Below, piece by piece: positions 15,548 to 33,071 of a DNA stretch of 64,000 nucleotides. Position 1 is the first letter of the stretch, and each line of letters starts with the position of its first letter. Origin of the DNA: Microbacteriaceae bacterium (lineage in GTDB: Bacteria > Actinomycetota > Actinomycetes > Actinomycetales > Microbacteriaceae); assembly GCA_030841285.1 (NCBI GenBank), contig JAVECW010000113.1, forward strand, positions 1 through 64,000, in the 5' to 3' direction. A program made the translations under genes and the position numbers. The notes below the pieces were generated by a model. It ran no database searches. It saw nothing but the letters and a program-made list of their open reading frames with translations, and was not told the DNA's origin.

Positions 15548-15618
15548 GGCTTCCTCATCTTCTTTGACGGCGGCATCCGTTGCCGCAGGCGGCGACCGAT
15601 CCTTCACGATAACCGGTA

Positions 15619-15692
15619 ATTGCATCCAATATCAACACATCACACGGATATATTGCCAATACTCGGCCAATCGTGGTCATAATGGATGCAAT
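15619..15692. promoter_or_regulatory. Paired ATTG-NNNN-CAAT sites in the divergent E1 / VOC-gntR promoter
   Basis: ATTGCATCCA (15619-15628) and TGGATGCAAT (15683-15692) are perfect inverted copies of each other. Each sits in a near-palindrome of the form ATTGNATNCAAT, which resembles binding sites of FadR-type GntR regulators. A third, shorter element ATTGCCAAT lies between them at 15652-15660. One outer site is near the E1 start and the other just before the ribosome-binding site of the VOC gene. The GntR regulator in the second operon is the natural candidate binder, through looping or occlusion of both promoters. Confidence 0.6.
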
Positions 15693-15704
15693 CAAGGAGG
15701 ATTC

Positions 15705-16229
15705 ATGTCACTTCCCGGTCTGCGTGGAACCGAACACATCGGCTTCACTGTGCCGAACCTCGATGAGGCTGACGACTTCTTCGTCAACGTCATCGGATGC
15801 GATCGCATCTACGACCTCGGCCCGATGATCCACGATGACGACTGGATGCTCGAGCATCTCAACGTTGATCCCCGAACCGTGATGCGTCGCTTGCGTTTCT
15901 ACCGCTGTGGCACCGGCCCCAATTTCGAGATCTTCGAATACGAAGCCGCCGACGGTCAGCGCGAGCAGCCTCGGAACAGCGACATCGGTGGCCACCACCT
16001 CGCGTTCTATGTCGACGATTTCGATTCGGCTCTCGAGTACCTGCGAGCGGCGGGTGTGCGTATCCTCGGCGAGCCGACGGCCAGCAAACGGGCAAGCGAG
16101 GGCCAGCGCTGGGTCTATTTCCTGAGCCCATGGGGCATGCAGTTCGAACTCGTCAGCTTTCCCGACGGTAAGGCCTACGAGAAGGACGCACCGGTTAAAC
16201 TGTGGCATCCCGCACGACCGGCCGAGTGA
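15705..16229 (+). CDS. VOC (glyoxalase/bleomycin resistance/dioxygenase) superfamily protein
   Basis: A 174-residue protein with two VOC half-modules: EHIGFTVPNLDEADDFF near the N-terminus and HHLAFYVDDFDSALEYL in the second half. His and Glu residues in both halves could bind a divalent metal. ATG 15705 follows AAGGAGG by 6 nt. VOC proteins include glyoxalases, extradiol dioxygenases, epimerases and resistance proteins; nothing here decides between these. It is co-transcribed with the GntR regulator and divergent from the E1-E2 operon. It may therefore process a reactive by-product or a precursor of the 2-oxo compound the complex uses. Confidence 0.82.
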   Translation: MSLPGLRGTEHIGFTVPNLDEADDFFVNVIGCDRIYDLGPMIHDDDWMLEHLNVDPRTVMRRLRFYRCGTGPNFEIFEYEAADGQREQPRNSDIGGHHLAFYVDDFDSALEYLRAAGVRILGEPTASKRASEGQRWVYFLSPWGMQFELVSFPDGKAYEKDAPVKLWHPARPAE

Positions 16230-16906
16230 ACAAATGGGGCAAGCCAGTGACCGATAAGGAGACCCCGTCCGCCGTGGCGAGCCAGCGGATAGCGTCGCTC
16301 ATCCGCGACCAGATCCTCGACGGTTCTCTTGCTCCCGGCGAGCGGATCCGACAAGAGGAATTCGCGGAGAGGTTCGGTGCGAGCCGGATTCCCGTGAAAG
16401 AGGCGCTGCGTCTGCTCGAATCGGACGGCCTCGTCACTCTTGTCGCGAACACCGGAGCCTGGGTTTCACGCATGAGCGAAGACGAATGCGCCGAGGCCTA
16501 CCAGATCCGCGAGCGGCTCGAACCTCTGCTGCTGCACGAGAGCATGAAGAACCTCGACGACGCGACCATCGACGCCCTCGACGCGTTGGCGTACGAGATG
16601 GAGTCATGCGCAGACGTCGAGATGTTCCTGCGTCTCGACCGGCAGTTCCACCTGCTGTCCTACAGCGCGGCGCGCACCGCGACCCTCACCGAGATCATCC
16701 AACGACTCTGGAACACCACCCAGCACTATCGTCGAGCCTTCACGCTGCTCATGGGCATCGAGCACAACCAGATCACCCACAGTCACCACCATCTCATCGT
16801 CGACGCGCTGCGGCGACGTGACCCGGATGACGCGGAGAGTGCCCTCGCCAGCCACATCCGGCGCACGCGCAGCGAACTCGCCCGACACCCCGAGGTCTTC
16901 GGGTAA
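16226..16906 (+). CDS. GntR family regulator, FadR/FCD subfamily
   Basis: A 226-residue regulator from GTG 16226, which overlaps the preceding stop in a GTGA junction; GTG 16247 is an alternative, and a start at 16202 would overlap the VOC gene further. The winged helix domain is visible at residues about 15-75 (LIRDQILDGSLAPGERI, FAERFGASRIPVKEALRLL). The C-terminal all-helical FCD domain follows, with the His/Asp positions DRQFHLLSY and HHHLIVDAL that often bind a metal and a small carboxylate effector. It likely represses its own operon and the divergent 2-oxoacid dehydrogenase operon in response to a carboxylate. Confidence 0.88.
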   Translation: MNKWGKPVTDKETPSAVASQRIASLIRDQILDGSLAPGERIRQEEFAERFGASRIPVKEALRLLESDGLVTLVANTGAWVSRMSEDECAEAYQIRERLEPLLLHESMKNLDDATIDALDALAYEMESCADVEMFLRLDRQFHLLSYSAARTATLTEIIQRLWNTTQHYRRAFTLLMGIEHNQITHSHHHLIVDALRRRDPDDAESALASHIRRTRSELARHPEVFG

Positions 16907-16965: not shown

Positions 16966-18447
16966 TTACCACGCCACGGCGATGTACTGCGACTCGGTGA
17001 ATTCGAGCATCCCCTCGTGTCCGCCTTCCCGCCCCAGACCGCTCTGCTTGAAACCGCCGAACGGCGCAGCCGGGTCGGAGACGATGCCGCGGTTGAGCCC
17101 CACCATTCCCGTCTCGATCCGCTCGCTCACGGCGAGGCCACGGGCGAGGTCAGACGTGTAGACATAGGCGACCAGGCCGTACTCGGTGTTGTTCGCCATC
17201 GCGATCGCCTCATCGTCGGTCTCGAAGGTGACGATGGGCGCAACCGGGCCGAAGATCTCCTCTCGCAGGATCGGCGAATCCGGCGCGACATCCACCAGCA
17301 CGGTCGGCGGGTAGTAGTAGCCGATTCCGTCGTCCGGAGCCCCGCCGGTCATGGCTGTCGCGCCGGCGTCACGCGCGGCGGACACCAGTGCATCCACCTT
17401 GGCGCGGGCTTCGTCATTGATCAGCGGACCCAGTTCGACCTCTGCCTCGAGCCCGTCGCCCACGCGCAGTTCGCCCATACGAGCGGAAAGCCGCGCCGAG
17501 AACTCGGCAGCGATCGACGAATGAACGTAGAAGCGATTCGCCGCAGTACACGCCTCCCCGCCGTTGCGCATCTTGGCGAGCATGGCGCCGTCGATCGCTT
17601 TGTCGATGTCTGCGTCACCGAACACGAGGAAGGGAGCGTTGCCGCCCAACTCCATGCTGCAGTTGACCACGGTTTTCGACGCGTTGGCCAGCAGGACCCT
17701 TCCCACCTCGGTCGAGCCGGTGAACGACAGCTTCCTGACCGCGGGATCGTCGAGCATCGCGGAGACGACCGCCCCCGATTTGCGCGACGGAATCACGTTG
17801 ACGACTCCGTCGGGAACCCCAGCATCGCGGAGCAGTTGACCGATCGCGAGCGCGGTCAGTGGGGTGTCACTCGCGGGCTTCAGGATGACGGCGCATCCGG
17901 CCGCGAGTGCCGGACCGATCTTGCGCGTCGCCATCGCCGCGGGGAAATTCCACGGTGTGACGAGGACGCTGACTCCGATCGGCTGGTGGGTGACCAGGAT
18001 GCGGTTCTGCCCGCTCGGCGCGTGCTGCACGCTGCCGATCAGACGCACGGCCTCCTCCGAATACCAGCGGAAGAATTCGGTCGCGTACGCGATCTCGCCG
18101 CGGGCATCCGCCAAAGACTTTCCGTTCTCGAGCACGATGAGGCGCGCGAGATCTTCCGAACGCTCGCGCATCAGCTCGAACGTGCGACGAAGCACCTCGG
18201 CACGCTCGCGCGGCGATTTCGCACTCCAGATCGGCAAGGCGCGCTCGGCCGCCCTGACGGCGGCCAGGCCATCGGCGACGCTCGCACTCGCGACACTCGC
18301 GATCACCTCTCCGGTTGCGGGGTTGAGCACCTCGAAGCGCTCCCGCGTCGACGATTCCTGCGTGCGCCCGTCGATCATCAGGTCATGGGGAAACCATCCC
18401 GTGAGTTCGTCGGTTCCCGCTGAGGTGTGGTCGTGCCTGATCAGCAT
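16966..18447 (-). CDS. NAD(P)-dependent aldehyde dehydrogenase, succinate-semialdehyde dehydrogenase (GabD)-like
   Basis: A 493-residue aldehyde dehydrogenase. ATG 18447 has GAAGGA 6 nt upstream and leaves a 16-nt gap to the preceding gene; an ATG at 18474 has no such site. Motifs: TPWNFPAAMATRKIGPAL, the FTGSTEVG nucleotide-binding turn, the general base Glu in MELGGNAPF, and the catalytic Cys in NGGEACTAANRF. Overall it looks like the succinate/glutarate-semialdehyde group. It is the last gene of the operon that starts at 20643. It should oxidise an aldehyde produced by the pathway to the acid. Its exact substrate is not evident. Confidence 0.88.
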   Translation of the reverse strand: MLIRHDHTSAGTDELTGWFPHDLMIDGRTQESSTRERFEVLNPATGEVIASVASASVADGLAAVRAAERALPIWSAKSPRERAEVLRRTFELMRERSEDLARLIVLENGKSLADARGEIAYATEFFRWYSEEAVRLIGSVQHAPSGQNRILVTHQPIGVSVLVTPWNFPAAMATRKIGPALAAGCAVILKPASDTPLTALAIGQLLRDAGVPDGVVNVIPSRKSGAVVSAMLDDPAVRKLSFTGSTEVGRVLLANASKTVVNCSMELGGNAPFLVFGDADIDKAIDGAMLAKMRNGGEACTAANRFYVHSSIAAEFSARLSARMGELRVGDGLEAEVELGPLINDEARAKVDALVSAARDAGATAMTGGAPDDGIGYYYPPTVLVDVAPDSPILREEIFGPVAPIVTFETDDEAIAMANNTEYGLVAYVYTSDLARGLAVSERIETGMVGLNRGIVSDPAAPFGGFKQSGLGREGGHEGMLEFTESQYIAVAW

Positions 18448-18463
18448 GCGTGTTCCTTCGCTT

Positions 18464-19708
18464 CTAGTACTCATTGGCGATGAAGAGCTCCTGCGCCGGG
18501 AATTTGGTGAGCACGACGGGACCGTCTTCTGTCACGACGATCTCCTCTTCAATGCGGGCAGCCGAGACGCCGTCGGAGGCCGGGCAATACGTCTCGAGCG
18601 CGAACACCATGCCGACCTCAAGTTCGATCGGGCTCTCCATACTGTTGAGCCGGGAGATGATCGGCCGCTCGTGCAGGCCGAGGCCAAGCCCGTGGGCGAA
18701 CTGGAGGCCGAACGCCGACATCTCGTTCTCGAAACCAAACTCGGTTGCCTTCGGAAGCACCGCCGCGACCTGGTCGGTTCCCACACCGGCCTTGATCGCG
18801 TCGATCCCCCGGTCCATCCATTCGCGCGCCTGCTTGTAGGCATCACGCTGCGGCGCGGTTGCCGAGCCCACGGCGAAAGTGCGGTAGTAGCAGGTGCGGT
18901 ACCCGTTGAACGAGTGGATGATGTCGAAGAACGCCTGGTCGCCCGGTCGGATGATGCGGTCCGTGAAGTTGTGCGGATGCGGGTTACACCTCTCTCCGGA
19001 GATCGCGTTGACGGCTTCGACCTGGTCGGAGCCCAGCTCGTAGAGTCGCTTGTTGGCCAGGGCGACGATCTCGTTCTCACGGATGCCCGGCTTCAGGACA
19101 TCCACGATGTCCTGATACACGCCATCCACCATCGCAGCCGCCTGGTTGAGCAGGATGATCTCGTCCTGCGACTTGATCACCCGAGCGTCGAGCATCAGCT
19201 GCTGGGCGTCCACGACCGACAATCCTTGCCGCTGCATCTCGAACAGGAACGGCGGCTCGACAATATCGACTCCCACCGGCGCATCCGCGACGCCCGCCTC
19301 CACCAGCAACCCCTTGATCTCGGCCACGGCATCCCGCATCAGGCCGGCCTCAGGAGAGACAGCCCCGCGGAACCCGAGGAAGCCAGCTCGCCAGTTCTCT
19401 TCGGGAAACCACTTCGAGTTCAGCCTGTGGTGTTTCACGGCAGAACCGAAGTCCCACAGGATCGGATCCTTGTCCCGCGTGATCAGCGCGTAGCGGATCA
19501 TCTTGTCGCCAAGGGCACCGCCGATCCACGTGGAGGTGGTGTACCGAATGTTATAGAAGTCGAAGAGCAGGAACGCGCCACACTCACTGGACTCCAAAGC
19601 CGCCTGCGCCCGCGCGATGCGGTAGTTCCGCAGGCGGTCAAAATCGACACGCCCCTCGTAATCCACGCCCATGTGACCCGGAGAGGGAATCGGGCGACCA
19701 CCGAACAT
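18464..19708 (-). CDS. M24 (aminopeptidase P / creatinase fold) family protein with an altered metal site
   Basis: A 414-residue protein of the pita-bread M24 fold. The N-terminal domain (residues about 25-170) is of creatinase/prolidase type (LLFDFYNIRYTTST). In the catalytic domain the usual five metal ligands would be Asp-x10-Asp, His, Glu, Glu. Here Asp262 is kept but the second Asp is Cys273 (FFDIIHSFNGYRTCYYRTF); His339 (FAHGLGLGLHE), Glu372 and Glu387/388 are present. M24-fold proteins that have departed from dimetal peptidase chemistry include creatinase, ectoine hydrolase and the DMSP lyase DddP. It is therefore likely to act on a small C-N or C-S bonded metabolite rather than on peptides. 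Its ATG shares a base with the stop of the upstream dehydrogenase. Confidence 0.8.
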   Translation of the reverse strand: MFGGRPIPSPGHMGVDYEGRVDFDRLRNYRIARAQAALESSECGAFLLFDFYNIRYTTSTWIGGALGDKMIRYALITRDKDPILWDFGSAVKHHRLNSKWFPEENWRAGFLGFRGAVSPEAGLMRDAVAEIKGLLVEAGVADAPVGVDIVEPPFLFEMQRQGLSVVDAQQLMLDARVIKSQDEIILLNQAAAMVDGVYQDIVDVLKPGIRENEIVALANKRLYELGSDQVEAVNAISGERCNPHPHNFTDRIIRPGDQAFFDIIHSFNGYRTCYYRTFAVGSATAPQRDAYKQAREWMDRGIDAIKAGVGTDQVAAVLPKATEFGFENEMSAFGLQFAHGLGLGLHERPIISRLNSMESPIELEVGMVFALETYCPASDGVSAARIEEEIVVTEDGPVVLTKFPAQELFIANEY

Positions 19709-20643
19709 CAGCGGGTCTCCAGCCCGTCGCTGACCTTCACATTTTCGGGTTCCAGGGTGAGCCCAGCGCCGCGGGCAACCTCGAGAAGCAAGGTCGCGAA
19801 GTCGTCACTCGTGTTCCCTGCGCTCACTTCCCGGGCCACAATCTGCCTGGCCGCCGACGCAAGGGGCATCGGCGCACCGAGCCTGGTGGCCGCATCCAGC
19901 CCGAGATCGAAGTCTTTCTGCAGCAGCGGCATGGTGAAGGTGGGCGTGAAGTCGAGGTTCACAAACGCAGGCGTCTTGTAACGAGTGAACACCGAACCCA
20001 TGACGGAATCGTTCAGGAAGCCGAGGAACGCTTCACGGCTCACTCCGCCCTTCTCAGCGAGCACAGTAATTTCGGCGAGCGACTGGGTGACGACGCCCAA
20101 GAATACGTTATGGGCGATCTTGACCAGGCGCGCAACCTCGCCATCGCCGACATACGTCACCCCCCTGCCCAGTTCGTTGAGGATCGGCTCGACCTCGTCG
20201 AAGACGGCTCTGGGGCCGGATGCTGCGAGGGTGAGCTTGCCCGCCGCGATCACCTTCGGATTGCCGCTCACCGGGGTGGCAAGAAACTCGGTTCCGCGCT
20301 CATTGGCGAGCGCGCGAATCCTTTCGGATGCCTCGGAAGAGACGGTCGACGAGTCAAGCACAATCCGGGGAGCGACTCCGTCAGCGGTGAGAAGTCCATC
20401 GACACCGACGGTCACTTCTTCGAGGTCCTTCGGGGCCGACACCATGATGAACACGACGTCGCGGTCGGCCAGGTCGACGGGGCGATCCACGATCTTCGCG
20501 CCCTTCTCAGCGAGCGGCTCTGCCTTTGAACGCGTGCGGTTGAACGCGGATAGGTCGTAGCCGGCATCCAGAAGACGGGTCGCGAGCGCGAATCCCATAC
20601 GCCCAGTACCGATCCAGCCAATGGTGGGTTTGGATGTCGACAT
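19708..20643 (-). CDS. NAD-dependent beta-hydroxyacid dehydrogenase (3-hydroxyisobutyrate dehydrogenase family)
   Basis: A 311-residue protein. ATG 20643 is preceded by GAGGAAGG; an in-frame GTG lies 6 nt further up. The N-terminus has IGWIGTGRMGFALATRLL, the NAD-binding motif of the family, followed by FNRTRSKAEPL. The conserved catalytic Lys is in VKIAHNVFLG, and the substrate-binding stretch is seen as ATPVSGNPKVIAAGKL. Family members oxidise 3-hydroxyisobutyrate, tartronate semialdehyde (in reverse), or related beta-hydroxyacids. It is the first gene of an operon with the M24-like protein and an aldehyde dehydrogenase, under a LacI-type operator at 20673. Confidence 0.87.
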   Translation of the reverse strand: MSTSKPTIGWIGTGRMGFALATRLLDAGYDLSAFNRTRSKAEPLAEKGAKIVDRPVDLADRDVVFIMVSAPKDLEEVTVGVDGLLTADGVAPRIVLDSSTVSSEASERIRALANERGTEFLATPVSGNPKVIAAGKLTLAASGPRAVFDEVEPILNELGRGVTYVGDGEVARLVKIAHNVFLGVVTQSLAEITVLAEKGGVSREAFLGFLNDSVMGSVFTRYKTPAFVNLDFTPTFTMPLLQKDFDLGLDAATRLGAPMPLASAARQIVAREVSAGNTSDDFATLLLEVARGAGLTLEPENVKVSDGLETR

Positions 20644-20672
20644 GGACACCTTCCTCTCACATAGTTGTGTAC

Positions 20673-20686
20673 TGCAATCGATTGCA
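20673..20686. promoter_or_regulatory. LacI-type operator 1 (before the hydroxyacid dehydrogenase operon)
   Basis: TGCAATCGATTGCA is a perfect 14-bp palindrome, 30 bp before the ATG at 20643. Read on the minus strand, TTGCAA at its upstream edge is 18 bp from TATGTG, so the operator would overlap the -35 element. It is one of six copies of the same element in this array. Confidence 0.82.
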
Positions 20687-20760: not shown

Positions 20761-22455
20761 CTAGTCGACAGCGGGCCGAAGAGCGGAAAACTCAGCGGAT
20801 GCGTGAGTCACCGCGCCGCCCACGATCGTGAGATCGCTCCTAATCTCCCGAAGCGCGTCGGTGTCACACTCGAAAGGATCGAACGTCGGTACGCAGAGGT
20901 CAGCTTCGTAACCCGGCACGAGCCTGCCGCGCTCGTGCTCTTCACCCGTGAACCACGCCGCGTCCCTGGTGTACGACGCAAGCGCTTGTTCCACGCTCAA
21001 TAGATGTTCCGCATCGCGCGGTGGTGCACCGTCGATGGATTTCCCGGTAACGAGCCACCAGATCGACGCCCACGGCGAGAACCAGTTGGCGCGGGTTGCA
21101 TCCGTTCCTCCGCCGATCGTGACCCCGTGCGCCCGCATGAGCCCGATCGGCGGCGCGGTGCGAACCGCGTCTGCACCCCAGCCCTCGCGATAGTCGGTCG
21201 ATTTGAGCATGAGGCGGTTCTGCACGAGCACTCCAGCACCCAACGCCGCGATCCGATTGATGCTCTCCTCGCTCGCCTGGTCGGCGTGCACGATGGAGAA
21301 GCGCCTGCCGGCGACACCGCCGGTCTCACTCTCCACCTGTTCCCACGCATCCAGGACGCGACTAAGTGAATCCTCGAGGACGGCGTGCACGGACATCGGC
21401 CAGCTCGCCTGCGCGCACATTCTGACGATCTCGACCAGTTCGTCATAGGCAATCTGCTCAAGGACGAACGGATCCAGCCCCTCCATGTCGTGACACGACA
21501 GATGCGGAATCTCGCCGAGGCCCACGACGCGCAGCCGGCGGTCGCCGAACCCAGGATGCAGGAATTCCGTCAGGGCCGCGACGTCGCCGACCTCGCCGCC
21601 CCTCGTCCAGGCCGAGATGAACAACCGCACCCTCACGGCGAGTGCATCATCGCTCCAGAGCTTGAAGAGCTGGTGGTAGTCGTGCGGCGTCATCTTGAGA
21701 CCACCCCCGTCGGCAACGCCAGTGAGCCCGTGAGCGGCGAACTCGCGGAACATCGCGCGGGTGCCCGAGTACGACTGCTCCGGAGTCGCAGCGAGCGCAA
21801 GGGCGAGCGGCACCGCAAACGCTCCCATGCCGATGATCTGGCCGGTGACCTGGCCGACAGCATCCCGCAGCAGCTTTCCACCGGCCGGATCTGCCGACGA
21901 GTCATCCCATCCACACGCCGCAAGCCCTGCCGAGTTGACCACACCGTGGTCGTATAACTCCTGGATGAAGACGGGGTTATCCGGCGCGACCGCGTCCAGT
22001 TCCGCGCGCGTCGGCAACCGGCGCTCCTCGAGCTGGCGGGAGTGCCAGCCACCGACAACGGAGATCCACTGCCCAGGTTCGAGGGCCGAGGCGCGTGCTC
22101 CGATCTGCCGCAGGCCCTCTGCCAGCGACCGCACGTCCTCCCAGTGCAGCGACAGGTCCCAGCTCGCGCCCGCCCGTACCGCGTGAATGTGCGAGTCGAT
22201 GAGACCGGGCAGCACCCGCCGGCCAGCAAGGTCAATTACCCGTCTCGCCTGTGCTGCGAGCGGTGCGAGCTCATCGTCTGTACCGGCCGCGACCACTCTC
22301 CCGTCACGAATGGCGATCGCGGAAACCTGGTTCGGCGTCGATGCGTCGTCCTCGGTGCCGGTCCAGATCTTTCCGCCGACGAGCACGAGATCCACGAGGT
22401 GCAGGGTCACAGGTGCGACGGTCGCCGCGCGAAAATCCGTCATCGCCGCCGTCAT
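20761..22455 (-). CDS. Amidohydrolase family protein, YtcJ-like
   Basis: A 564-residue metal-dependent hydrolase. A beta-sandwich leads into the His-x-His motif LPGLIDSHIHAV (His89, His91). Later ligands are suggested by MSVHAVLEDS, SIVHADQ and GGGTDATRAN. The sequence resembles YtcJ/NfdA-type amidohydrolases, which cleave C-N bonds such as formamides; the natural substrates of most members are unknown. The ATG overlaps the stop of the upstream amidohydrolase in a TAATG junction, so the two are translationally coupled and probably act in sequence on one compound. It is the last gene of this operon. Confidence 0.86.
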   Translation of the reverse strand: MTAAMTDFRAATVAPVTLHLVDLVLVGGKIWTGTEDDASTPNQVSAIAIRDGRVVAAGTDDELAPLAAQARRVIDLAGRRVLPGLIDSHIHAVRAGASWDLSLHWEDVRSLAEGLRQIGARASALEPGQWISVVGGWHSRQLEERRLPTRAELDAVAPDNPVFIQELYDHGVVNSAGLAACGWDDSSADPAGGKLLRDAVGQVTGQIIGMGAFAVPLALALAATPEQSYSGTRAMFREFAAHGLTGVADGGGLKMTPHDYHQLFKLWSDDALAVRVRLFISAWTRGGEVGDVAALTEFLHPGFGDRRLRVVGLGEIPHLSCHDMEGLDPFVLEQIAYDELVEIVRMCAQASWPMSVHAVLEDSLSRVLDAWEQVESETGGVAGRRFSIVHADQASEESINRIAALGAGVLVQNRLMLKSTDYREGWGADAVRTAPPIGLMRAHGVTIGGGTDATRANWFSPWASIWWLVTGKSIDGAPPRDAEHLLSVEQALASYTRDAAWFTGEEHERGRLVPGYEADLCVPTFDPFECDTDALREIRSDLTIVGGAVTHASAEFSALRPAVD

Positions 22456-23789
22456 TACGCTGCCCCCGGCCCGATGCGGATGAGATCGGGTAACAGGTAA
22501 TCGCGGGAGATTCGCGCTTCGTCCTGCACCGCGCGGGCGTCATGTCCGACCAGCTCGCCTGCCGATTTCACCAGGGTTCCAGCCACGAATACGTTCTCCA
22601 CGTTCTCACTGTCGCTGAGCGTGATCGCAGCGGGGAGGTTGTTCACGAGCGACAGGTTGGGTGTGTCGATTCTCAGCATGATGATGTCGGCCTGCTTGCC
22701 CGGCGTGAGCGATCCGATCTCCTTCTCCAGGCCAAGCGCCCGCGCTCCCCCGATGGTTGCCATCTCAACGACATCACGTGTGGTCAGCTGGAGTTCGCTC
22801 GTCCACTCCCCGCGGCTCAGGGCCTCGTGATTCTGCCAGCCGCGCTCCGCCTCGAGGGTGCCGCGCATCTCGGCGAAGATGCTGCCGCCGACCCCACTGA
22901 CCACATCGACGCTCAGGCTCGGCTGAATGCCCGCCGCGATGAGGCGGCCGGTGGCCGGATAGCCGTGACCCATCTGCATCTCGACGCGCGGTGAGATGGA
23001 AACGTGGCCGCCGGATTCACGAATGAGTTGCAGCTCCTCGTCAGTGCAGGTGTTGCAATGCACGAAGATGAGGTCGGGTCCGAGCAGGCCGAGCCTGTTC
23101 ATCTCGGTGATCGATCGCTTCTGGCCGAGCAGGCCGACCCCCAGGTGGATCGAGGTGCGGATGTCGAGCTCGCGCGCCAGCTGCACGTCTGTGATGGTCT
23201 CCTCAAAGCTCGAGAACTCCGGGCCCAGGCTCGCCATCGCGAGCGTCAGCAACCGGTCACCGCTCGAGAAATATTGCGATGCAACGCGTCGGACGTCCTC
23301 GACGTACCACTCTGCGGATGGAGAGGCCGGCACTCCATACCCGAACACGGCACGGATGCCGGACGCTCGCAATCCTGCGATCGCTGAATCGGCGTGATCC
23401 GGTGAGTTCATGATGTGCGACCAGTCCATGATCGTCGTAATGCCGCCGTTGAGCGCCTCGAGCGAACCGAGCAGGTCGGCGATGTAGACATCCTCAGGCC
23501 TGAATGCGGGCCCGTACTTGCCGAGCATGTTCTCCACGTACTGTCCGAGCGTCCAGTCGGCGGCGATCTGGCGGATCGATGACTGCCACATGTGCCGGTG
23601 AGTATCGATCAGGCCCGGCATCACGATCCGATTGGTGGCGTCGATCAGTTGCGCGTCTGGAGCATGGATGTCGGCCGCCACAGCGACGATGCGCGAGCCC
23701 TCGATCAGGACGTCACCCGTGGGTAGATCGCCTATCGCCGGGTCGGCGCTGAAAATGATTCCGCCTTTGATCAGCGTCTTTTGAGACAT
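22455..23789 (-). CDS. Amidohydrolase family protein, TRZ/ATZ (cytosine deaminase-like) type
   Basis: A 444-residue enzyme of the triazine hydrolase/adenosine deaminase-like group. Metal ligands seen: His64 and His66 in PGLIDTHRHMW, the His in TSIHLGVG, the His in FVHCNTC, and the Asp in SLSVDVVSG. Residues 1-58 and the C-terminal strand region form the usual beta-sandwich. These enzymes deaminate or dechlorinate N-heterocycles or hydrolyse related amidines. The start at 23789 has GAGGAG at good spacing. It is the promoter-proximal gene of a two-gene operon under a LacI-type operator at 23831. The substrate is not assignable from sequence. Confidence 0.87.
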   Translation of the reverse strand: MSQKTLIKGGIIFSADPAIGDLPTGDVLIEGSRIVAVAADIHAPDAQLIDATNRIVMPGLIDTHRHMWQSSIRQIAADWTLGQYVENMLGKYGPAFRPEDVYIADLLGSLEALNGGITTIMDWSHIMNSPDHADSAIAGLRASGIRAVFGYGVPASPSAEWYVEDVRRVASQYFSSGDRLLTLAMASLGPEFSSFEETITDVQLARELDIRTSIHLGVGLLGQKRSITEMNRLGLLGPDLIFVHCNTCTDEELQLIRESGGHVSISPRVEMQMGHGYPATGRLIAAGIQPSLSVDVVSGVGGSIFAEMRGTLEAERGWQNHEALSRGEWTSELQLTTRDVVEMATIGGARALGLEKEIGSLTPGKQADIIMLRIDTPNLSLVNNLPAAITLSDSENVENVFVAGTLVKSAGELVGHDARAVQDEARISRDYLLPDLIRIGPGAA

Positions 23790-23949
23790 GTCTTCTACTC
23801 CTCATTGAGCCCAAGAACGGAACGTTGTTACACAATCGATTGCACTGACTATGAAGCAATGGGCCCCGTGCCGTCAAGTGGCCCTCGCGATTATGCAGCT
23901 AATCCATAGTCGTAGCCGCACAGAAACAAGAGCGAGAGCATCGTGTGAT
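23790..23949. promoter_or_regulatory. Promoter gap with LacI-type operator 2 (23831-23844)
   Basis: CACAATCGATTGCA (23831-23844) carries the invariant core CAATCGATTG, 42 bp before the amidohydrolase start at 23789. A further inverted pair GACTATG (23847-23853) / CATAGTC (23905-23911) lies upstream. The rest of the gap, back to the stop of the FAD oxidoreductase at 23950, shows no gene. Confidence 0.8.
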
Positions 23950-25494
23950 TCAGGGCATCGACATGACAGTCGCCGAGCCGATGCCGAGATCGTCAAGAAT
24001 TGTTCGCGCGGAATTACGCCCGGGCCGACCGGTAACCGACCCTCCTGGGTGGGAGGTAGAGCCGGTCAGGTATAAGCCCGGTACATCGGTGCGGTATTCA
24101 CGCCACCCACGGACCACGGTGCCGTCGTCGAGCTCAAACTCCCCGCCATGGCACGATCCTCCAACATTGGACAGATTGTGCGCTGCAAGCGATGTCGGCG
24201 ACTCCACTCTCATTGCGAGAATGTCTTCGGGATCCAAACCATCCACGTGCTCACGTGCGATTTCAAGCAACCGGTTCGCATAGTTCTCACCGTCGATTTG
24301 GCTCCACTGGGCACCGTCCAGGAATTCGGGCACGACGGTGAGAAACTTGAAGACGCCACCGGGAGCCCTATCGGGATCGACCACTGTTGACGAAACCATC
24401 AGAAGCCACGGCGAGGCCGTTTCAAGGTCGCCTGATTGCGCCGCCACCACCTGCCGATGAAGCCCATCTGGAGTTCCTAGCCCTCCAGCAACAGCGCGTA
24501 AGGGACCAGACGGTGTCCGGTATCGGACGTCGGCGCGGAGCGCGAAGTGGACCGCAAACGCCGACAAGCCCGGGCGCCAGCGAGAGGCTGCGTCATCGAC
24601 CATGGGAGACGAGAATCCCAGTAATTTGGGTAATTCGGTCAAGTGGCTCGCTGCGGCAATTGCACGCCGCGCTCGAAAGGTACGGCCGTCTTTCGTTCGT
24701 GCGCCCACACACCTTCCGTCTTCAACGATCAGAGAATCGACCCACGCGTTGGTGAAGATCCGTCCGCCGTGGTCCTCGATATGAGCCGCTAATGCCGCGG
24801 GGAGAGCACCCGAACCGCCGACCGGAGTCGTCCACCCGAACGCAATTCGCCCAGCCATCATCGCTGCGGGCAATGCACCCGTGCCAGCTTGCAATGGCGA
24901 TTGCAAAGTCGCGAAGGCCATCCATATCATCGCCTGGCGCACGACGGGGTGTTCGAAGGTCTCCATAATGAAGTCCCACGCCGTCCCCCGTCTCATGCGC
25001 TCGTACCGAAGAGACACCGGATCGTCTGGAAGGTCGAGGCCCGCGGAGAAGTATGCATGCGCGCCCCGCAGCCCGGAGTCCCAATCCTGCAACATGGAAC
25101 GCAAAGCATCGGCATCGTGCACCGACCAGCGGGCGAACTCGCGAACAGTGGCTTCAAGGTCGGAGTGGATGACGATGGCCTCTCCTCCATCGAGCGGAAT
25201 TACCGTTGCCGGGTCCGTCACGATGTACGTGAGCCCATAGCGCGAAATCAATCCGAGCTCGTCATTGCGGATCAGCGGGTTCGATTGAATGACCACGTGG
25301 GCGCTGGAGCACGAATCATGCAGCCAGCCTGGAAGCGTGAGTTCTTCAGTTACCGTATTCCCGCCGAGGATTTCGCGCCCCTCAAGCACAGTGACGCTGA
25401 GGCCGGCTTCCGCCAGATATGCGGCACATACCAGGGCGTTGTGCCCCCCGCCGATAACGACAATGTCGCTTTCCGCGCCATCATTATCGGACAT
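23950..25494 (-). CDS. CrtI-like NAD(P)/FAD-dependent oxidoreductase
   Basis: A 514-residue flavoprotein. The N-terminus has SDIVVIGGGHNALVCAAYLA, the FAD-binding Rossmann motif, ending with VLEGREILGGNT. The C-terminus has the second FAD signature (GLYLTGSTSHPGGSVTGRPG). This layout is that of phytoene-desaturase-like and related amine/alcohol oxidoreductases. ATG 25494 lies inside the last codons of the preceding ATPase gene (11-nt overlap) with GAGGAAAG upstream, so it is co-translated with the importer. That coupling suggests it performs an early oxidation or desaturation of the imported compound. It has no carotenoid genes around it. Confidence 0.83.
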   Translation of the reverse strand: MSDNDGAESDIVVIGGGHNALVCAAYLAEAGLSVTVLEGREILGGNTVTEELTLPGWLHDSCSSAHVVIQSNPLIRNDELGLISRYGLTYIVTDPATVIPLDGGEAIVIHSDLEATVREFARWSVHDADALRSMLQDWDSGLRGAHAYFSAGLDLPDDPVSLRYERMRRGTAWDFIMETFEHPVVRQAMIWMAFATLQSPLQAGTGALPAAMMAGRIAFGWTTPVGGSGALPAALAAHIEDHGGRIFTNAWVDSLIVEDGRCVGARTKDGRTFRARRAIAAASHLTELPKLLGFSSPMVDDAASRWRPGLSAFAVHFALRADVRYRTPSGPLRAVAGGLGTPDGLHRQVVAAQSGDLETASPWLLMVSSTVVDPDRAPGGVFKFLTVVPEFLDGAQWSQIDGENYANRLLEIAREHVDGLDPEDILAMRVESPTSLAAHNLSNVGGSCHGGEFELDDGTVVRGWREYRTDVPGLYLTGSTSHPGGSVTGRPGRNSARTILDDLGIGSATVMSMP

Positions 25495-26254
25495 GGTTCT
25501 CGCTTTCCTCGTGCGCCGAGGCGCCCGCACCGAGGTACAGCCGTGCAACCTCAGGATCGTTCAACAACGATTCGCCCGAACCGGTGAGGGCGACGACACC
25601 GGCTTCAAGCACGGCAGCGCGATGCGCGACCGCGAGCCCAGACCGAGCGTTCTGCTCGACAAGAAGCACCGACCGACCGGTCTTGGCCAGACCAGAGATG
25701 CTCGCAAACACCGAGGTGCGCGATTTCGGGTCGAGACCGATCGATGGCTCGTCGAGGAGGATGAGCGCGGGGTCGAGCATGAGCGAGCGGGCAAGTTCGA
25801 CCTGCTTCTGCTCGCCGCCCGACAAGGATCCCGCGGCGGAGGACCGGCGCTTTGCAACAATCGGGAACGCCTCAGCCACTTCCTCCATCCGGCTTTTGAC
25901 CACGTTCTGGTCCGTGAGGATGAACCCACCCATCATGACGTTCTCCCACACGGTCATCCCGGGGAAGAGGCTGCGCTCCTGCGGCACATGGACGATGCCG
26001 CGCCCGAGGCGCTGGCGCGACGCCATCGCGCTAATGTCGGTGCCTGCAAACATGACGGTGCCCGACTTGGGGCGAAGCAAGCCGCTGATCGACTTGAGCA
26101 CAGTCGACTTTCCCGCACCGTTCGGACCGATGAGGCACACGATCTCGCCACGGTTGACGGAGAGGTTGACCCCCTTGAGGATGAGCCCCGCGCCGTAGCC
26201 GGCTGTGACATCCGTGAGTGTGAGCAGGATCTCTGCGTCGGCGCTAGCTGCCAA
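25484..26254 (-). CDS. livF: ABC transporter ATP-binding protein, LivF-like
   Basis: A 256-residue ATPase of the branched-chain amino acid (HAAT) importer family. The start is taken as TTG 26254 because GGAGG sits 6 nt upstream, in the end of livG, and conserved sequence begins right after; ATG 26329 would overlap livG by 86 nt. Motifs: Walker A GPNGAGKST, signature LSGGEQKQ, Walker B LILLDEPSIGL. It works with the LivG-like ATPase to drive uptake. Its 3' end overlaps the FAD oxidoreductase start by 11 nt and its 5' end overlaps livG by 11 nt. Confidence 0.9.
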   Translation of the reverse strand: MAASADAEILLTLTDVTAGYGAGLILKGVNLSVNRGEIVCLIGPNGAGKSTVLKSISGLLRPKSGTVMFAGTDISAMASRQRLGRGIVHVPQERSLFPGMTVWENVMMGGFILTDQNVVKSRMEEVAEAFPIVAKRRSSAAGSLSGGEQKQVELARSLMLDPALILLDEPSIGLDPKSRTSVFASISGLAKTGRSVLLVEQNARSGLAVAHRAAVLEAGVVALTGSGESLLNDPEVARLYLGAGASAHEESENHVR

Positions 26255-26978
26255 GGTATGCCTCCAGGACGAGGGGATCGGTTTGGATGGTTGCGGGGGC
26301 GCCGAATGCAATGGGCGCTCCTTGATCAAGCACGACGACCGGGTTGCAGAGTCTCATGACGAGCTGCATGTCGTGCTCGACGATCAGGAATGTCACTCCC
26401 GCGGCATTGCGCTCGCGAATGTGCCGCTCCATCGTGTCGATCATGACCGGGTTGACACCGGCCGTCGGTTCGTCGAGAAGAACGAGGGACGGCTCGCTCA
26501 TGAGCACCGCCGCGAACTCGAGCAGCTTGCGCTGGCCGTAGGAGAGCTCGCCGGACGGCAGGTGCGCGAGGGACTCGAGCCTGAATTCATGCAGCATCTT
26601 CTGTGCACGGATCTCGTCGTCGAGTGACACTCGCCGTCCAAACAGGCCCTTCCACGTGTACCCCGCGGCGACGACGAGGTTCTCGATGACAGTGAGTTCC
26701 GGGAAAATGCGCGCCTGTTGGAATGTACGGGACAGCCCCTTGCGGTACAGGTCAGCCGGGCGCGGTCGGGTGATGGTTTCACCGTTGAAGGTGATCGACC
26801 CTGAGTCTGCCGCCAGGTAACCCGTGATCATGTTGAACAGCGTCGTCTTGCCTGACCCGTTCGGGCCAATGAGGGCTGTTATCGACCCCTTCTCGACGGA
26901 GAAGGAACAATCGTTGACGGCGGTCACCCCGCCGAATCGCTTGGTGAAGTGGTCGACGCTGAGCAGCATGTCGCTCAT
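26244..26978 (-). CDS. livG: ABC transporter ATP-binding protein, LivG-like
   Basis: A 244-residue ATPase. Walker A GPNGSGKTT, the Q-loop region, signature LSYGQRKLLEF and Walker B LVLLDEPTAGVNP are all present. The LivG-type length and C-terminal extension fit the HAAT family. Its ATG overlaps the livM stop (ATGA). It forms the nucleotide-binding pair with the LivF-like protein. The importer serves the LacI-controlled cluster, so its substrate is probably the pathway compound rather than leucine. Confidence 0.91.
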   Translation of the reverse strand: MSDMLLSVDHFTKRFGGVTAVNDCSFSVEKGSITALIGPNGSGKTTLFNMITGYLAADSGSITFNGETITRPRPADLYRKGLSRTFQQARIFPELTVIENLVVAAGYTWKGLFGRRVSLDDEIRAQKMLHEFRLESLAHLPSGELSYGQRKLLEFAAVLMSEPSLVLLDEPTAGVNPVMIDTMERHIRERNAAGVTFLIVEHDMQLVMRLCNPVVVLDQGAPIAFGAPATIQTDPLVLEAYLGS

Positions 26979-28027
26979 CGGGTGACTCCCGTCTGGTGTG
27001 CTGCTGGTTGGGCGGAAACTGCGGATGCCGCGTCGCTGGCGTCACGGAGAATCCCATTCGCCGCGGCTCGCTTTTTTCTCAGCCGATCCGAGATGGACGG
27101 AAGGATGCCGCGCGGGAGGAAGAGCATGATGACCAGGAACACGGCGGCGTATGCAAACAGGTACAGCTCGCTCGCCCCGAAGGTGAAGGCAAAGAATTCC
27201 TGCGCCGGCACGAGGATGAACGCCCCGAGCACCGGACCCCACAGCGTTCCGCGACCGCCCAGGAACGTCATGAGCACCATCCCGATCGTGATCAGTGGGT
27301 CGACTGCGAACTGCGGGTACACGAATCCGACGTAGTAGGCCCAGACTCCGCCGACCATGGCGACGAGGCCACAGCTGACGGCGAAGGCGATGAGCTTGAC
27401 GGCAGTGACGCGTACGCCGACACCGTGCGCCTTCTCCTCATCGGCGCGGACCGTCGCGAGCGACAGCCCGATCTTCGTCTTCCTGAAATAGAGCGAGATG
27501 CCCATCGCGACGGCGAGCAGCGCGAGCATTACGTAGTAGAACGGCCAGTTGTACGTCGAGACGTCGAAAGGCGCGGGCGCGACACTCTTGCCCTGGGCTC
27601 CCCCGGTCACGGTGTTGAAGTTGAATGCAAGGGTCTGAGCGATGAACAGCACGGTGATCGTGACGATGGCGAAGACATCCGCCCTCGTCCGCATCGCAAC
27701 CCATCCGATCGGGAGGCTGATGAGGGCCGCACCGATTGCGACGAGAGGAAGCACCACGAAGGGAAGGTACCCACCGTAAACGCTTCCGTTGAAGATGATC
27801 GCTATCGAGTACGCACCCAGGCCGAAGAACGCCGCGTGGCCCAGCGACGGGTAGCCCGCATACCCGCCGACGAGGTTCCACGAACTGGCAAGTGCCGCGT
27901 ACATGATCGTGAAGATCAGGGTGTTGGTGACCCAGCCGATCTGTCCGGTAACGAGCGGAATGACAATCAGCACACCGAAGAAGACAACGGCGCGAACTAC
28001 GCCGATGCGAGCGAGCAGGGCTTTCAC
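26975..28027 (-). CDS. livM: ABC transporter permease, LivM-like
   Basis: A 350-residue permease with about nine to ten hydrophobic segments. The family hallmark is visible at SWNLVGGYAGYPSLGHAAFFGLGAYS (shown here as segments SWNLVGGYAG and SLGHAAFFGLGAYS), and GGRGTLWGPVLGAF occurs near the C-terminus. It pairs with the LivH-like permease to form the channel. It overlaps livH upstream and livG downstream by 4 nt each, showing a tightly coupled operon. Confidence 0.91.
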   Translation of the reverse strand: MKALLARIGVVRAVVFFGVLIVIPLVTGQIGWVTNTLIFTIMYAALASSWNLVGGYAGYPSLGHAAFFGLGAYSIAIIFNGSVYGGYLPFVVLPLVAIGAALISLPIGWVAMRTRADVFAIVTITVLFIAQTLAFNFNTVTGGAQGKSVAPAPFDVSTYNWPFYYVMLALLAVAMGISLYFRKTKIGLSLATVRADEEKAHGVGVRVTAVKLIAFAVSCGLVAMVGGVWAYYVGFVYPQFAVDPLITIGMVLMTFLGGRGTLWGPVLGAFILVPAQEFFAFTFGASELYLFAYAAVFLVIMLFLPRGILPSISDRLRKKRAAANGILRDASDAASAVSAQPAAHQTGVTR

Positions 28028-28902
28028 AGGGCACCTCGAGTCCGTGCTCCGAAGAGACCGCGAGGCCTCAGCAGCAGCACCAGTAGCAGAACGATGAAGA
28101 ACGTGAAGTCCGACCAGATGGGGGACGCCTCGGCCGAGACGACGGAGGAGGCGACTCCCATCACGAGCGCGGCGACGACGGATCCCCCGATGCTCCCGAG
28201 TCCTCCCAGGACGACGACTGTGAGCAGTCGACTGATCAGGTCGTAGTGGCTTCCGGGGTTGAAGGCGTTGAGCATGCCGAAGACGGAGCCGGCGGATGCC
28301 GCGGTCGCGGCCCCGAGGCCGAAGCCGAGGGCGGATACCCGCTGGGCGTTCACCCCCAACAACTGCGCAGACATCGGGTTCTGTACGGTCGCACGGACCG
28401 CGCGACCGAACTTGGTCCGCTTGAGCACCAGGTACAGCACTGCGAGCACGACAAGGGAAAGAACGAAGGCGAAGAACCGCACGAGGCTGACCTGGAAGCC
28501 AAAGACCGTCCAGCTGAAGTTCGCGTACGACGGCTGGATGTTGGTGAGTGTTGTGCTGTATGTAAAGGACAGTATGCCCTCCACCCCCAGCTCCAACGCG
28601 AATGTCACCAACAGTGACAGCTGGGCCACATCGTCACTGTGAAGCGGCCGGAGGAGAGCCCATTGGAGGCCCATCCCGACCAGGAACATCAGTGGCGTCG
28701 TGATCAACACCGAGGCGAACGGGTCCACACCAAACTGCACGAAGAGGGTGTAGGTCAGGTAGGCGGCGAGTACGACGAACGCTCCTTGCGCGAGGTTGAC
28801 GACCTTCATGATTCCGAAGATCAGCGTTTGACCGCTGGCCATCAGCGCGTATACACCCCCCGTGAGGATGCCGAGGATGATTGCTTGGATTAGTGCATGC
28901 AT
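28024..28902 (-). CDS. livH: ABC transporter permease, LivH-like
   Basis: A 292-residue permease with about eight membrane segments. The N-terminal ILGILTGGVYALMASG, LIFGIMKVVNLAQGAF and the GGLGSIGGSVVAALVMG loop are characteristic of LivH proteins. It lies 48 nt after the binding-protein gene and overlaps livM by 4 nt. With LivM it forms the transmembrane part of the HAAT-type importer. Confidence 0.92.
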   Translation of the reverse strand: MHALIQAIILGILTGGVYALMASGQTLIFGIMKVVNLAQGAFVVLAAYLTYTLFVQFGVDPFASVLITTPLMFLVGMGLQWALLRPLHSDDVAQLSLLVTFALELGVEGILSFTYSTTLTNIQPSYANFSWTVFGFQVSLVRFFAFVLSLVVLAVLYLVLKRTKFGRAVRATVQNPMSAQLLGVNAQRVSALGFGLGAATAASAGSVFGMLNAFNPGSHYDLISRLLTVVVLGGLGSIGGSVVAALVMGVASSVVSAEASPIWSDFTFFIVLLLVLLLRPRGLFGARTRGAL

Positions 28903-28950: not shown

Positions 28951-30201
28951 CTATCCAGCCCAGTTGGGCTTGGGAGCGACCGGTGAGGTTTGCGCCGTCT
29001 TGGCGGGGTACACCGTCTGGAGCTTGCCGTTGACCCACTGCACGAGCAGGTACTCGCCCTTGGGCTTTCCTGTCGCGTCCCAGCTCAGGGTGCCAACGAG
29101 GGTGGGCCAGCTACCAGAGTGCAGCGTCTTGATGATGGTGGCGTTGTCGACCTTGCCGGTCTTGGTAGCGACTTCCTGCAGAAGCATGCCCGCGGAGTAC
29201 GCCTCGGCCGAGGTGGGGTCGATCTGGTTGGCATCTCCGCCGAACTTCGCAATGTAGTCGGAGATGAACTTCGCGCTACCGGAGACGGTCGAGTCTGCAT
29301 ACCAGTCGATGCTTCCGAAGACGCCCTCCGTGTTGGCAGACGAGACGGCGGCAGGGAAGTCGCCCGGCGAGTTTGAACCGTTGGCCTCATAGAGCCACTT
29401 CGGGTTGAACTTGAGCTGGATCATCGCCTTGATCTGCGCGAAGGCGTCGCCTTCCTGGGTTCCGCCAACGACGACATCCGGCTTCGCAGCGGCGATTCCC
29501 GCGACGATTGGGGTCATGTCGGCGGTCTCAGACGGGTAGGTCTGGTTGTAGACAGTCTTGATTCCTGCTGCCTCGAAGCGCTTCTGGATGCTGTCTGCGA
29601 TGGGTGCGGAGAACGGGTCGTCGAGCTTCGCGTACGCCGCGGTCTTCGGGCGCTGATCCGCGGGCAGGGACAGGATGTAGTTGGCGAAGACATCGCCGCC
29701 CCGCGTTGACTCGGCCGGCTGTACAAAGAAGAGATTGTTCAACTTCTGGTCGAAGACCGAGGGACCGCCACCGGCTGGCTCGATGAATGAGTATCCGTAG
29801 CGCGATGCGACTCGGGATGCCGGCACGGTCAGCAGGCTCGAGAACGGCCCGAAGACGATGTCGACCTTGGTCTGCGTGATGAGGTTGGTGTAGTTGGTCA
29901 CGACCTGGTCGGGGCTCGACGCGTCATCGACGATATCGAGCTCGACCTTGCGACCCAGAACACCGCCTGACTTATTGGCGACGTCTGCCCAAAGCTGATA
30001 GCCCCGCTGGGCTGCCTTCCCAGACGACGAAAAGTCACCGGTCAGCGACAGTGAGATTCCGATCTTGAGTGGCGCCGAGTTGGATGCGCTCGGCGTGCCG
30101 CTAGCGGCTGCACATCCGGACAGCGCGAGAGCGGAGGCGGCGAGAACGCCCACTCCCCAGAGTCGGGCACGCGATAAACCGCGGCGTTGGTGTAGATGCA
30201 T
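28951..30201 (-). CDS. ABC transporter substrate-binding lipoprotein, LivK/HAAT family
   Basis: A 416-residue lipoprotein with lipobox ALSGC (Cys30). ATG 30201 is preferred to the adjacent ATG 30204 for its spacing from AGGAG. The mature protein has the periplasmic-binding type I fold: LKIGISLSLTGDFSSSGKAA, GGVLGRKVELDIVDDAS, VDIVFGPFSSLLTVPAS. Ligands of this family include branched-chain amino acids, amides, urea, and aromatic or heterocyclic acids. It starts the importer operon and is preceded by a LacI-type operator at 30278. The ligand is probably the inducer-related compound degraded by the surrounding enzymes. Confidence 0.91.
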   Translation of the reverse strand: MHLHQRRGLSRARLWGVGVLAASALALSGCAAASGTPSASNSAPLKIGISLSLTGDFSSSGKAAQRGYQLWADVANKSGGVLGRKVELDIVDDASSPDQVVTNYTNLITQTKVDIVFGPFSSLLTVPASRVASRYGYSFIEPAGGGPSVFDQKLNNLFFVQPAESTRGGDVFANYILSLPADQRPKTAAYAKLDDPFSAPIADSIQKRFEAAGIKTVYNQTYPSETADMTPIVAGIAAAKPDVVVGGTQEGDAFAQIKAMIQLKFNPKWLYEANGSNSPGDFPAAVSSANTEGVFGSIDWYADSTVSGSAKFISDYIAKFGGDANQIDPTSAEAYSAGMLLQEVATKTGKVDNATIIKTLHSGSWPTLVGTLSWDATGKPKGEYLLVQWVNGKLQTVYPAKTAQTSPVAPKPNWAG

Positions 30202-30204
30202 CAT

Positions 30205-30356
30205 TGCTCCTAACGGGGTAAGAACGTCTAGCGCATTCGTTCGACGTCAAACCCACCGGGATTCATCATCGAATTACCGCAATCGTTTGCGCTACTTTGT
30301 CACCTCTTTTGATCCCTGTCAAGAGTTGACAATGCCAGCGAAACCGGCGGACGTCC
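30205..30356. promoter_or_regulatory. Importer promoter with LacI-type operator 3 and a second palindrome
   Basis: The operator CGCAATCGTTTGCG is at 30278-30291, 77 bp before the start at 30201. A perfect 6-bp dyad TGTCAA-GAG-TTGACA lies at 30317-30331; read on the minus strand, its TTGACA (30317-30322) is a good -35 hexamer. The operator would then lie downstream of this promoter, a position suited to blocking transcription. Confidence 0.7.
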
Positions 30357-31376: not shown

Positions 31377-31405
31377 GGCACAACGATAGCAGTGGGCCCT
31401 CAATT

Positions 31406-31419: not shown

Positions 31420-31471
31420 CAGGATCGGCACCGTGCGGAGACCACAGCCTCTCAATGCTCGCCGGTCCGAT

Positions 31472-33004: not shown

Positions 33005-33071
33005 GTAAACCCTCTCGATTTTGAGCGTGCCACGCGCACTCGTCATTGAGTAGCCGCCATCTGTAGGCTAA

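Follow-up and report, generated by a model that had tools for sequence, protein, structure and literature searches.

A putative LacI-regulated pair of amidohydrolase genes at the front end of a candidate catabolic regulon in Microbacteriaceae

Why are two amidohydrolases of different subfamilies encoded by overlapping genes, and do they act one after the other on the same substrate? The question is raised by a 64,000-nucleotide (nt) stretch of DNA from a Microbacteriaceae bacterium (assembly GCA_030841285.1, contig JAVECW010000113.1, positions 1 to 64,000; the window), in which the initial annotation had recognized a TRZ/ATZ-type enzyme (ATZ) and a YtcJ-type enzyme (YtcJ) joined by a TAATG junction. 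The two reading frames indeed belong to different subfamilies: ATZ matches NCBIfam PRK08204 (NF006056; 542.4 bits, cut-off 391, residues 2-433), and YtcJ matches Pfam Amidohydro_3 (PF07969; 306.5 bits, cut-off 29.7, profile positions 1-471 of 472). They lie in a minus-strand cluster with the order LacI-family regulator, ABC transporter binding protein, LivHMGF-like transporter genes, FAD oxidoreductase, ATZ, YtcJ, a beta-hydroxyacid dehydrogenase (HIBADH), an M24-family protein and an aldehyde dehydrogenase (ALDH1). Past ALDH1, GntR and VOC genes are found on the plus strand, followed by genes for a fused E1 and an E2. We propose that ATZ and YtcJ probably form a LacI-repressed two-gene transcription unit, which would provide front-end hydrolases in a catabolic regulon.

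The stop codon of ATZ and the start codon of YtcJ share one base (minus-strand reading ...GCAGCGTAATGACG...), as the initial annotation had it. Five other junctions in the cluster overlap too: LivH/LivM and LivM/LivG by 4 nt each, HIBADH/M24 by 1 nt, M24/ALDH1 by 11 nt and LivF/FAD oxidoreductase by 11 nt, given a start of the latter at ATG 25494. The junction is thus normal packing and by itself weak evidence for a partnership. The exact TAATG is retained on both contigs of a same-genus genome, G054 (L005, L044), and in G114, from another genus, the two genes overlap by a different junction (14 nt if the first ATG is used). A search for the pair in other genomes finds it adjacent in G054 and G114; counting the genome of the window (G000), strict adjacency with overlap is confined to three genomes. 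The two G054 contigs differ at the 5' end of YtcJ, perhaps reflecting a strain mixture in that metagenome-assembled genome (MAG).

LacI-regulated catabolic operons carry a palindromic operator with a central CG by the promoter and a site before the lacI-type gene, and they encode a transporter together with enzymes. The window cluster is alike in operator form, in the site before its own LacI gene and in combining a transporter with enzymes, and differs in its gene set (M24, HIBADH and amidohydrolases). A LacI-type palindrome, TGCAATCGNTTGCA, with a central CG is located upstream of the ATZ-YtcJ pair, HIBADH-M24-ALDH, the transporter, LacI, a second aldehyde dehydrogenase (ALDH2) and a small binding-protein-like gene (g33166). 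It was first seen as TGCAATCGATTGCA before HIBADH, with a near copy before ATZ, on reading the gaps. The ATZ copy sits directly past a promoter-like TTGACG...CATAGT pair, which is also present in G114 and is closely similar in G054. All six matches in the window with up to three mismatches fall 13-74 nt upstream of six cluster genes. Over the whole assembly of the genome (2.57 Mb, 189 contigs, 91% complete), three sites have at most one mismatch, all of them in this cluster; allowing two mismatches yields 29 places, 6 of which are in the cluster, and 36 matches on both strands vs 14 for a reversed control pattern. Across 30 loci chosen for carrying the cluster (559,565 bases), we found 17 sites with at most one mismatch, where 200 shuffled palindromes averaged 0.04 and never exceeded 3. 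The cluster hence combines a LacI-family gene with recurrent palindromic sites at promoters, the pattern expected of a LacI regulon. No match to the operator sequence was found in a search of the open-access literature.

We then counted such sites gene by gene, allowing two mismatches, requiring 150 nt of upstream sequence and applying identity limits (in percent) of 55 for HIBADH, 40 for YtcJ, 40 for ATZ, 60 for the transporter binding protein (SBP), 44 for LacI and 62 for M24. For these and the 30-locus counts the duplicates L006, L009 and L017 were removed and L045, L105 and L109 retained; sites between divergent genes in L157 and L168 were each counted for both genes. A site precedes 17 of 24 HIBADH, all five SBP, all three g33166 and 5 of 11 LacI genes. 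It is rare before LivH-like genes (2/14 and 0/11), VOC (1/19) and cupin18 (1/13), and was not found before E1 (0/19), M24 (0/34), M24-B, a paralogue described below (0/18), GntR (0/14), ALDH1 (0/9), HTH-cupin (0/38) or RidA (0/5). ATZ-family genes, counted down to 30% identity where enough upstream sequence was present and with some genomes contributing several rows, carry a site in 7 of 15 cases in YtcJ-carrying genomes or loci vs 0 of 26 in others. With the 40% limit the count is 7/22 (7/8 in YtcJ genomes, 0/14 elsewhere), a limit that hid weaker relatives in YtcJ genomes. The seven genes are those of the window, G054, G114, G191, G257, G366 and G621, and they comprise all full-length ATZ genes at about 41-42% identity or more in YtcJ genomes.

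The G114 pair is particularly informative. It (L006/L045) is flanked on one side by a family-less gene and then DUF1775 and on the other by ArsR/SulP genes, and the HIBADH and M24 genes of this genome are located on a different contig (L104). Even so detached, the pair retains the promoter-like sequence ACTTGACG...CATAGTCAATGCAATCGATTGT, comprising TTGACG, CATAGT and the putative operator. This arrangement is our best single piece of evidence that ATZ and YtcJ may function as a unit within this regulon.

Co-occurrence was analyzed in 249 Microbacteriaceae genomes and in 396 genomes sampled from the phylum; many are MAGs, and gene calls in other loci are based on similarity. An ATZ orthologue (at least 87% identity) is present in the same three Microbacteriaceae genomes that have the adjacent pair, the next best relative being 46% identical. 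YtcJ relatives (E<=1e-80) are found in 10 of the 249 genomes, 7 of them at 58% or more. The ATZ family (E<=1e-60) is present in 8 of these 10 vs 33 of 249 overall, and in 5 of 7 when the pair genomes are excluded (nominal p 3.5e-4, Fisher); the M24 gene of the cluster (M24-A) is present in 9 of 10 vs 22 of 249 (nominal p 5e-10, Fisher). In the phylum sample, YtcJ (E<=1e-100) occurs in four genomes including that of the window, all with ATZ, which overall is found in 24 of 396; leaving out the genome of the window, the count is 3/3 vs 23/395 (nominal p 1.7e-4). The genes are often close to each other. An ATZ-family gene is located about 2 to 26 kb from YtcJ in G191, G018, G235 and G074; in G202 the two are on different contigs. 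In G257 they are adjacent and divergent, separated by about 210 nt, in G366 they share a strand, with RidA, HIBADH, M24, E1 alpha, E1 beta and ALDH lying in between, and G621 has them on separate contigs. G009 and G103 have YtcJ and no ATZ at E<=1e-60, with a weaker, split ATZ relative 3 kb off in G009 (L017). This relative (L017/L109) extends over two frames (L017 14968-15402 and 15378-16271), possibly owing to a frameshift.

Several points weigh against ATZ and YtcJ forming one regulated unit. The six window sites at up to three mismatches are not significant alone (expected mean 2.69; 7 of 100 shuffles reach six), and significance from the window count was dropped for this reason. The consensus was derived from the same loci on which it was then tested. 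No site within two mismatches precedes 7 of the 24 HIBADH genes, and only 3 of 21 YtcJ genes have one, the latter probably because YtcJ is mostly internal to operons. Among the 15 ATZ-family genes of YtcJ genomes, the eight that have no site are a 34-36% identity group from Microbacterium-type islands and related loci (L013, L015, L016, L019, L109, L110), L054 (39%) and, as a partial hit, L014; co-regulation therefore backs some of the co-located pairs and not others. As related genomes are not independent, the p-values come out too small. In a phylogenetic tree, the window ATZ falls into a three-row clade of its own with long branches around it, and its sister relationship to the ATZ genes that accompany YtcJ in other families is not firm; given this separate clade, the association may have more than one origin. 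Finally, consecutive and parallel action of the two enzymes would both fit the data. As a side observation, L014, from a record titled Planococcus sp. APC 4015, groups with Microbacterium loci by sequence and gene order; the record is probably mislabelled or contaminated.

What chemistry might the two enzymes catalyze? The amidohydrolase superfamily also holds enzymes that act on C-O, P-O and C-C bonds. In its full-length match above the cut-off and in the HxH, H, H, D metal-site residues, all of which are present (His-64, His-66, His-215, His-244, Asp-295), ATZ resembles the PRK08204 subfamily, part of what we take to be the COG0402 group of TRZ/ATZ-like enzymes. It differs from the solved deaminases of this group in lacking the glutamate of the HxxE motif, which we assume to be a determinant of TRZ/ATZ deaminase and chlorohydrolase chemistry. 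The corresponding ATZ motif is HLGV, with Val-218 at this position, and among 32 relatives none has a glutamate and 8 have an aspartate there. The glutamate of 7ww2 (HLAE) aligns directly to Val-218; in 3hpa (HLAE) and 2paj (HLSE) it is found three residues past the histidine, where the aligner placed a gap relative to ATZ, and the alignment of 4f0r (HIHE) is shifted by two residues. The assignment of ATZ as a ring deaminase is weakened by the absent glutamate. ATZ most likely hydrolyzes a bond in a ring or a side chain, in a mechanism that would dispense with the usual deaminase glutamate. The structure model of ATZ was poor (mean predicted local distance difference test (pLDDT) score 45.7) and was set aside, and a search of the open-access literature for PRK08204 by name returned no paper.

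The metal ligands of YtcJ (His-89, His-91, His-357, His-390, Asp-452) are invariant in all 17 aligned sequences. Its structure model (pLDDT 86.9) has as best fold matches 3ICJ and 3IGH, uncharacterized metal-dependent hydrolases from Pyrococcus (Foldseek E 8e-29 and 2e-28), which share just 21-22% sequence identity with it. As far as the available portions of two reports describe them, YtcJ-like/Amidohydro_3 enzymes, comprising the epsilon-lysine acylases SgELA and SmELA as well as metalloBSH, are amide hydrolases, and the SgELA ligands (His-76, His-78, His-330, His-365, Asp-431) are spaced closely similar to the H-x-H, H, H, D residues of YtcJ (PMC10699109, PMC13081902). MetalloBSH and its relatives are described in the same portions as having a conserved, often carboxylated lysine (PMC10699109, PMC13081902), whereas the 17-row YtcJ alignment contains no invariant lysine, the equivalent position not being fixed by structure. 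Glu-315 is invariant in YtcJ (17 of 17 and 23 of 23 rows) and may take the place of the bridging lysine. Because the described relatives are amide hydrolases, at least in what these sources offer, an amide is our best guess for YtcJ alone; the enzyme most likely acts on an exocyclic amide or ester.

A core of M24, HIBADH and succinate-semialdehyde-dehydrogenase (SSADH)-type and 2-oxoacid dehydrogenases also occurs without the pair. M24-A (at least 70% identity) is present in 22 of the 249 Microbacteriaceae genomes, 10 of which have neither ATZ (E<=1e-60) nor YtcJ (E<=1e-80). The window-type transporter, LacI, HIBADH and M24 are found together in G177, G219, G103 and G190 (L102, L106-L108). At the limits used, G177 has neither amidohydrolase; G103 encodes a 36% identical YtcJ about 45 kb away, and G219 and G190 have an ATZ relative on another contig. 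A Streptomyces plasmid (L168) carries LacI (45% identity), HIBADH (57%), M24 (72%), an SSADH-type ALDH (61%), VOC (65%) and fused E1 (65%) genes with an operator upstream of HIBADH, together with a flavin reductase and an LLM-class oxidoreductase, and no amidohydrolase is annotated in the 25 kb examined. Roseobacter plasmids (L167, L171) encode M24 (~63%), E1 alpha, E1 beta, a lipoyl protein, an SSADH-type ALDH, E2 and a sugar-type transporter, again with no annotated amidohydrolase in the stretches examined, the host chromosomes not having been searched. On a Paenarthrobacter plasmid (L172), M24 (56%) and E1 are accompanied by an amidase, RidA and a Liv-type transporter. Around the plasmid copies of this core, the stretches examined contain monooxygenase or amidase genes. 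Since the core occurs without either enzyme, ATZ/YtcJ would represent one of several swappable front ends.

The M24 protein of this core may not be an ordinary peptidase. The canonical M24 metal ligands are presumably D, D, H, E and E, which can also be read off prolidase alignments. M24-A deviates from this metallopeptidase ligand set, with the second aspartate replaced by tyrosine (CYYRTF), and the replacement is found in all 47 aligned rows of M24-A and M24-B (a few loci being represented twice) and in 3 of 3 plasmid homologues. Owing to this substitution, the name peptidase is doubtful for both proteins. M24-A has the pita-bread domain in common with the M24-family proteins DddP, prolidase and DoeA. 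Among NCBIfam models it scores highest with that of DddP, though far under the cut-off (98.6 bits vs 600), and it differs from these proteins in the tyrosine, seen in all rows examined. Pantoate, nicotinate (enamidase), dimethylsulfoniopropionate, ectoine and creatine routes, considered as pathway models and checked as far as the M24 family scores, offered no decisive feature. With 62-72% identity between the window protein and the Streptomyces and roseobacter plasmid copies (L167, L168, L171), this non-canonical M24 is highly conserved.

We envisage that a small compound would enter through the Liv-type ABC transporter, upon which LacI would leave its operators. ATZ and YtcJ would convert this compound, or two related ones, into an intermediate for M24, whose products may be oxidized by HIBADH and the aldehyde dehydrogenases. 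A separately regulated 2-oxoacid dehydrogenase (E1/E2) could then give an acyl-CoA. Gene order, the overlap, the pattern of operator sites and conservation are seen in the sequence; that the sites work as operators, the order of the steps and their chemistry are inferred. We lean towards ATZ and YtcJ acting on related substrates or converging branches, rather than as an obligatory deaminase-deformylase sequence.

Three other explanations need to be weighed against this proposal. If the overlap were ordinary operon packing, with unrelated substrates, a common promoter and a junction of no functional meaning, one would expect other overlapping junctions in the cluster and few genomes with strict adjacency, and both are found. 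We consider this improbable, as the detached G114 pair stays joined and keeps its operator, and as the genes are separately co-located in G191, G257 and G366, each time with an operator before ATZ. That the two enzymes would hydrolyze consecutive C-N bonds of one nitrogen-rich substrate, by ring deamination or opening followed by removal of a formyl or carbamoyl group, is in our view unlikely. The gene overlap, the common operator, the co-occurrence and the G366 island, in which both genes share a strand and enclose RidA, HIBADH, M24, E1 and ALDH, would be in line with such a sequence, as would the amide hydrolysis described for YtcJ-like/Amidohydro_3 enzymes in the available portions of the reports (PMC10699109, PMC13081902). 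Yet ATZ lacks the deaminase glutamate, 10 of the 22 M24-A genomes have neither enzyme, and the two families also occur apart among the 249 Microbacteriaceae genomes.

It is perhaps a little less unlikely that ATZ is a repurposed superfamily member, such as a lactonase, C-C hydrolase, hydratase or decarboxylase, leaving YtcJ as the only amide or ester hydrolase. In its favour are the missing HxxE glutamate and the ATZ relatives (45-46% identity) on Cupriavidus and Rhodococcus plasmids, which adjoin flavin-monooxygenase-type and alpha/beta-hydrolase genes, with a fumarylacetoacetate-hydrolase-family gene also beside the Cupriavidus copy. However, the window protein keeps every metal-site residue, and the aspartate in 8 of 32 relatives would allow deaminase-like chemistry for some members of the subfamily. 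Of the functional partnership suggested in the initial annotation, membership in one regulated pathway is thus retained, in view of the shared operator, the detached copy, co-occurrence and co-location, and the consecutive C-N hydrolyses are left unsupported. Nor does a substrate with two hydrolyzable C-N bonds follow from the data, because superfamily membership leaves the bond type open, the usual deaminase acid is absent from ATZ and both enzymes can be missing where the core is present.

Taken more broadly, the LacI-regulated front-end unit could belong to an undescribed catabolic system in Actinomycetota and roseobacters, a view we hold about as readily as we doubt it. Exchangeable front ends (the glutamate-less ATZ, YtcJ, an amidase, flavin monooxygenases, several transporters) would feed one intermediate to an M24 fold that has lost a metal ligand and may act as a non-peptidase lyase or hydrolase, followed by HIBADH, SSADH-type and 2-oxoacid dehydrogenases, the LacI/TGCAATCGNTTGCA regulon being its actinobacterial form. 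An open-access literature search covering YtcJ, PRK08204, M24 and the operator found no description of this regulon or pathway. With the regulon boundary, an open guess about two hydrolases becomes a pathway that can be tested: one would expect the LacI inducer to be the substrate or an early intermediate, and the operator provides a handle to search for further genes of the route. If M24 indeed is not a peptidase, its close relatives now called Xaa-Pro peptidases, such as those encoded on Phaeobacter and Streptomyces plasmids, would be misnamed. The features of the locus are listed in Table 1.

Table 1. Positions of genes and candidate regulatory sites at the ATZ-YtcJ locus, in window coordinates.
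Feature	Position	Strand	Remarks
ATZ, COG0402-type amidohydrolase, PRK08204 subfamily, 444 aa	22455-23789	-	reading frame and profile matches
YtcJ-type (Amidohydro_3) amidohydrolase, 564 aa	20761-22455	-	reading frame and profile match
TAATG stop/start junction	22453-22457	-	1-nt overlap
Putative LacI-type operator CACAATCGATTGCA	23831-23844		42 nt upstream of ATZ start
Perfect match to the putative operator, TGCAATCGATTGCA	20673-20686		24 nt upstream of HIBADH
Operator-like site	30278-30291		74 nt upstream of SBP
Operator-like site	31406-31419		30 nt upstream of likely LacI start 31376
Operator-like site	33072-33085		26 nt upstream of ALDH2
Operator-like site	34087-34100		13 nt upstream of g33166
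LacI-family regulator	30357-31445	-	true start probably 31376
Branched-chain-amino-acid-type ABC binding protein (SBP)	28951-30204	-	
LivH, LivM, LivG, LivF-like transporter genes	25484-28902	-	from translations and similarity to Liv-like genes in other loci
FAD-dependent CrtO/phytoene-desaturase-like oxidoreductase	23950-25494	-	start taken at ATG 25494
HIBADH, beta-hydroxyacid dehydrogenase family	19708-20649	-	
M24-A, M24 (pita-bread) family	18464-19708	-	second metal Asp replaced by Tyr (CYYRTF)
ALDH1, succinate-semialdehyde-dehydrogenase-like	16966-18474	-	
ALDH2, aldehyde dehydrogenase	31472-33046	-	behind its own operator-like site
g33166, small binding-protein-like gene	33166-34074	-	behind its own operator-like site
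E2	12036-13361	-	neighbouring block
Fused E1 alpha/beta	13361-15625	-	neighbouring block
VOC	within 15495-16229	+	neighbouring block
GntR	16202-16906	+	neighbouring block; named from translation

The neighbouring block of E2, E1, VOC and GntR (12036-16906) contains no LacI-type operator. The g33166 protein gave weak Pfam matches; an operator-like site also precedes its relatives in L104 and L168 (49% and 41% identity).

A second gene set, consisting of ATZ, bicupin, SDR, M24-B, E1 and an HTH-cupin regulator, is complete in L165 and also found in L166 and L008-L019. In several loci it adjoins the YtcJ-HIBADH-M24-A set, often with RidA, which suggests two sub-pathways with paralogous M24 proteins. 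Among the loci with YtcJ, HIBADH and M24, L010 and L008 come from cultivable relatives, Microcella alkalica DSM 19663 and Microbacterium ulmi CECT 5976. The Microbacteriaceae loci L047-L052, several of which contain two or three ATZ paralogues near each other, have ketopantoate-reductase-like genes and Rbs-type transporters. M24 relatives (55-56% identity) are encoded on plasmids (L172, L173) of Paenarthrobacter ureafaciens SD-1 and Paenarthrobacter sp. R1, which are sulfonamide degraders according to the available part of one report (PMC10873849); no tie of M24 to sulfonamide breakdown was found in that part, and we regard this as a lead only. Finally, a protein with a stand-alone nonribosomal peptide synthetase condensation-like domain (Pfam Condensation, 1.8e-17) is encoded at 34128-35618, adjoining the cluster.

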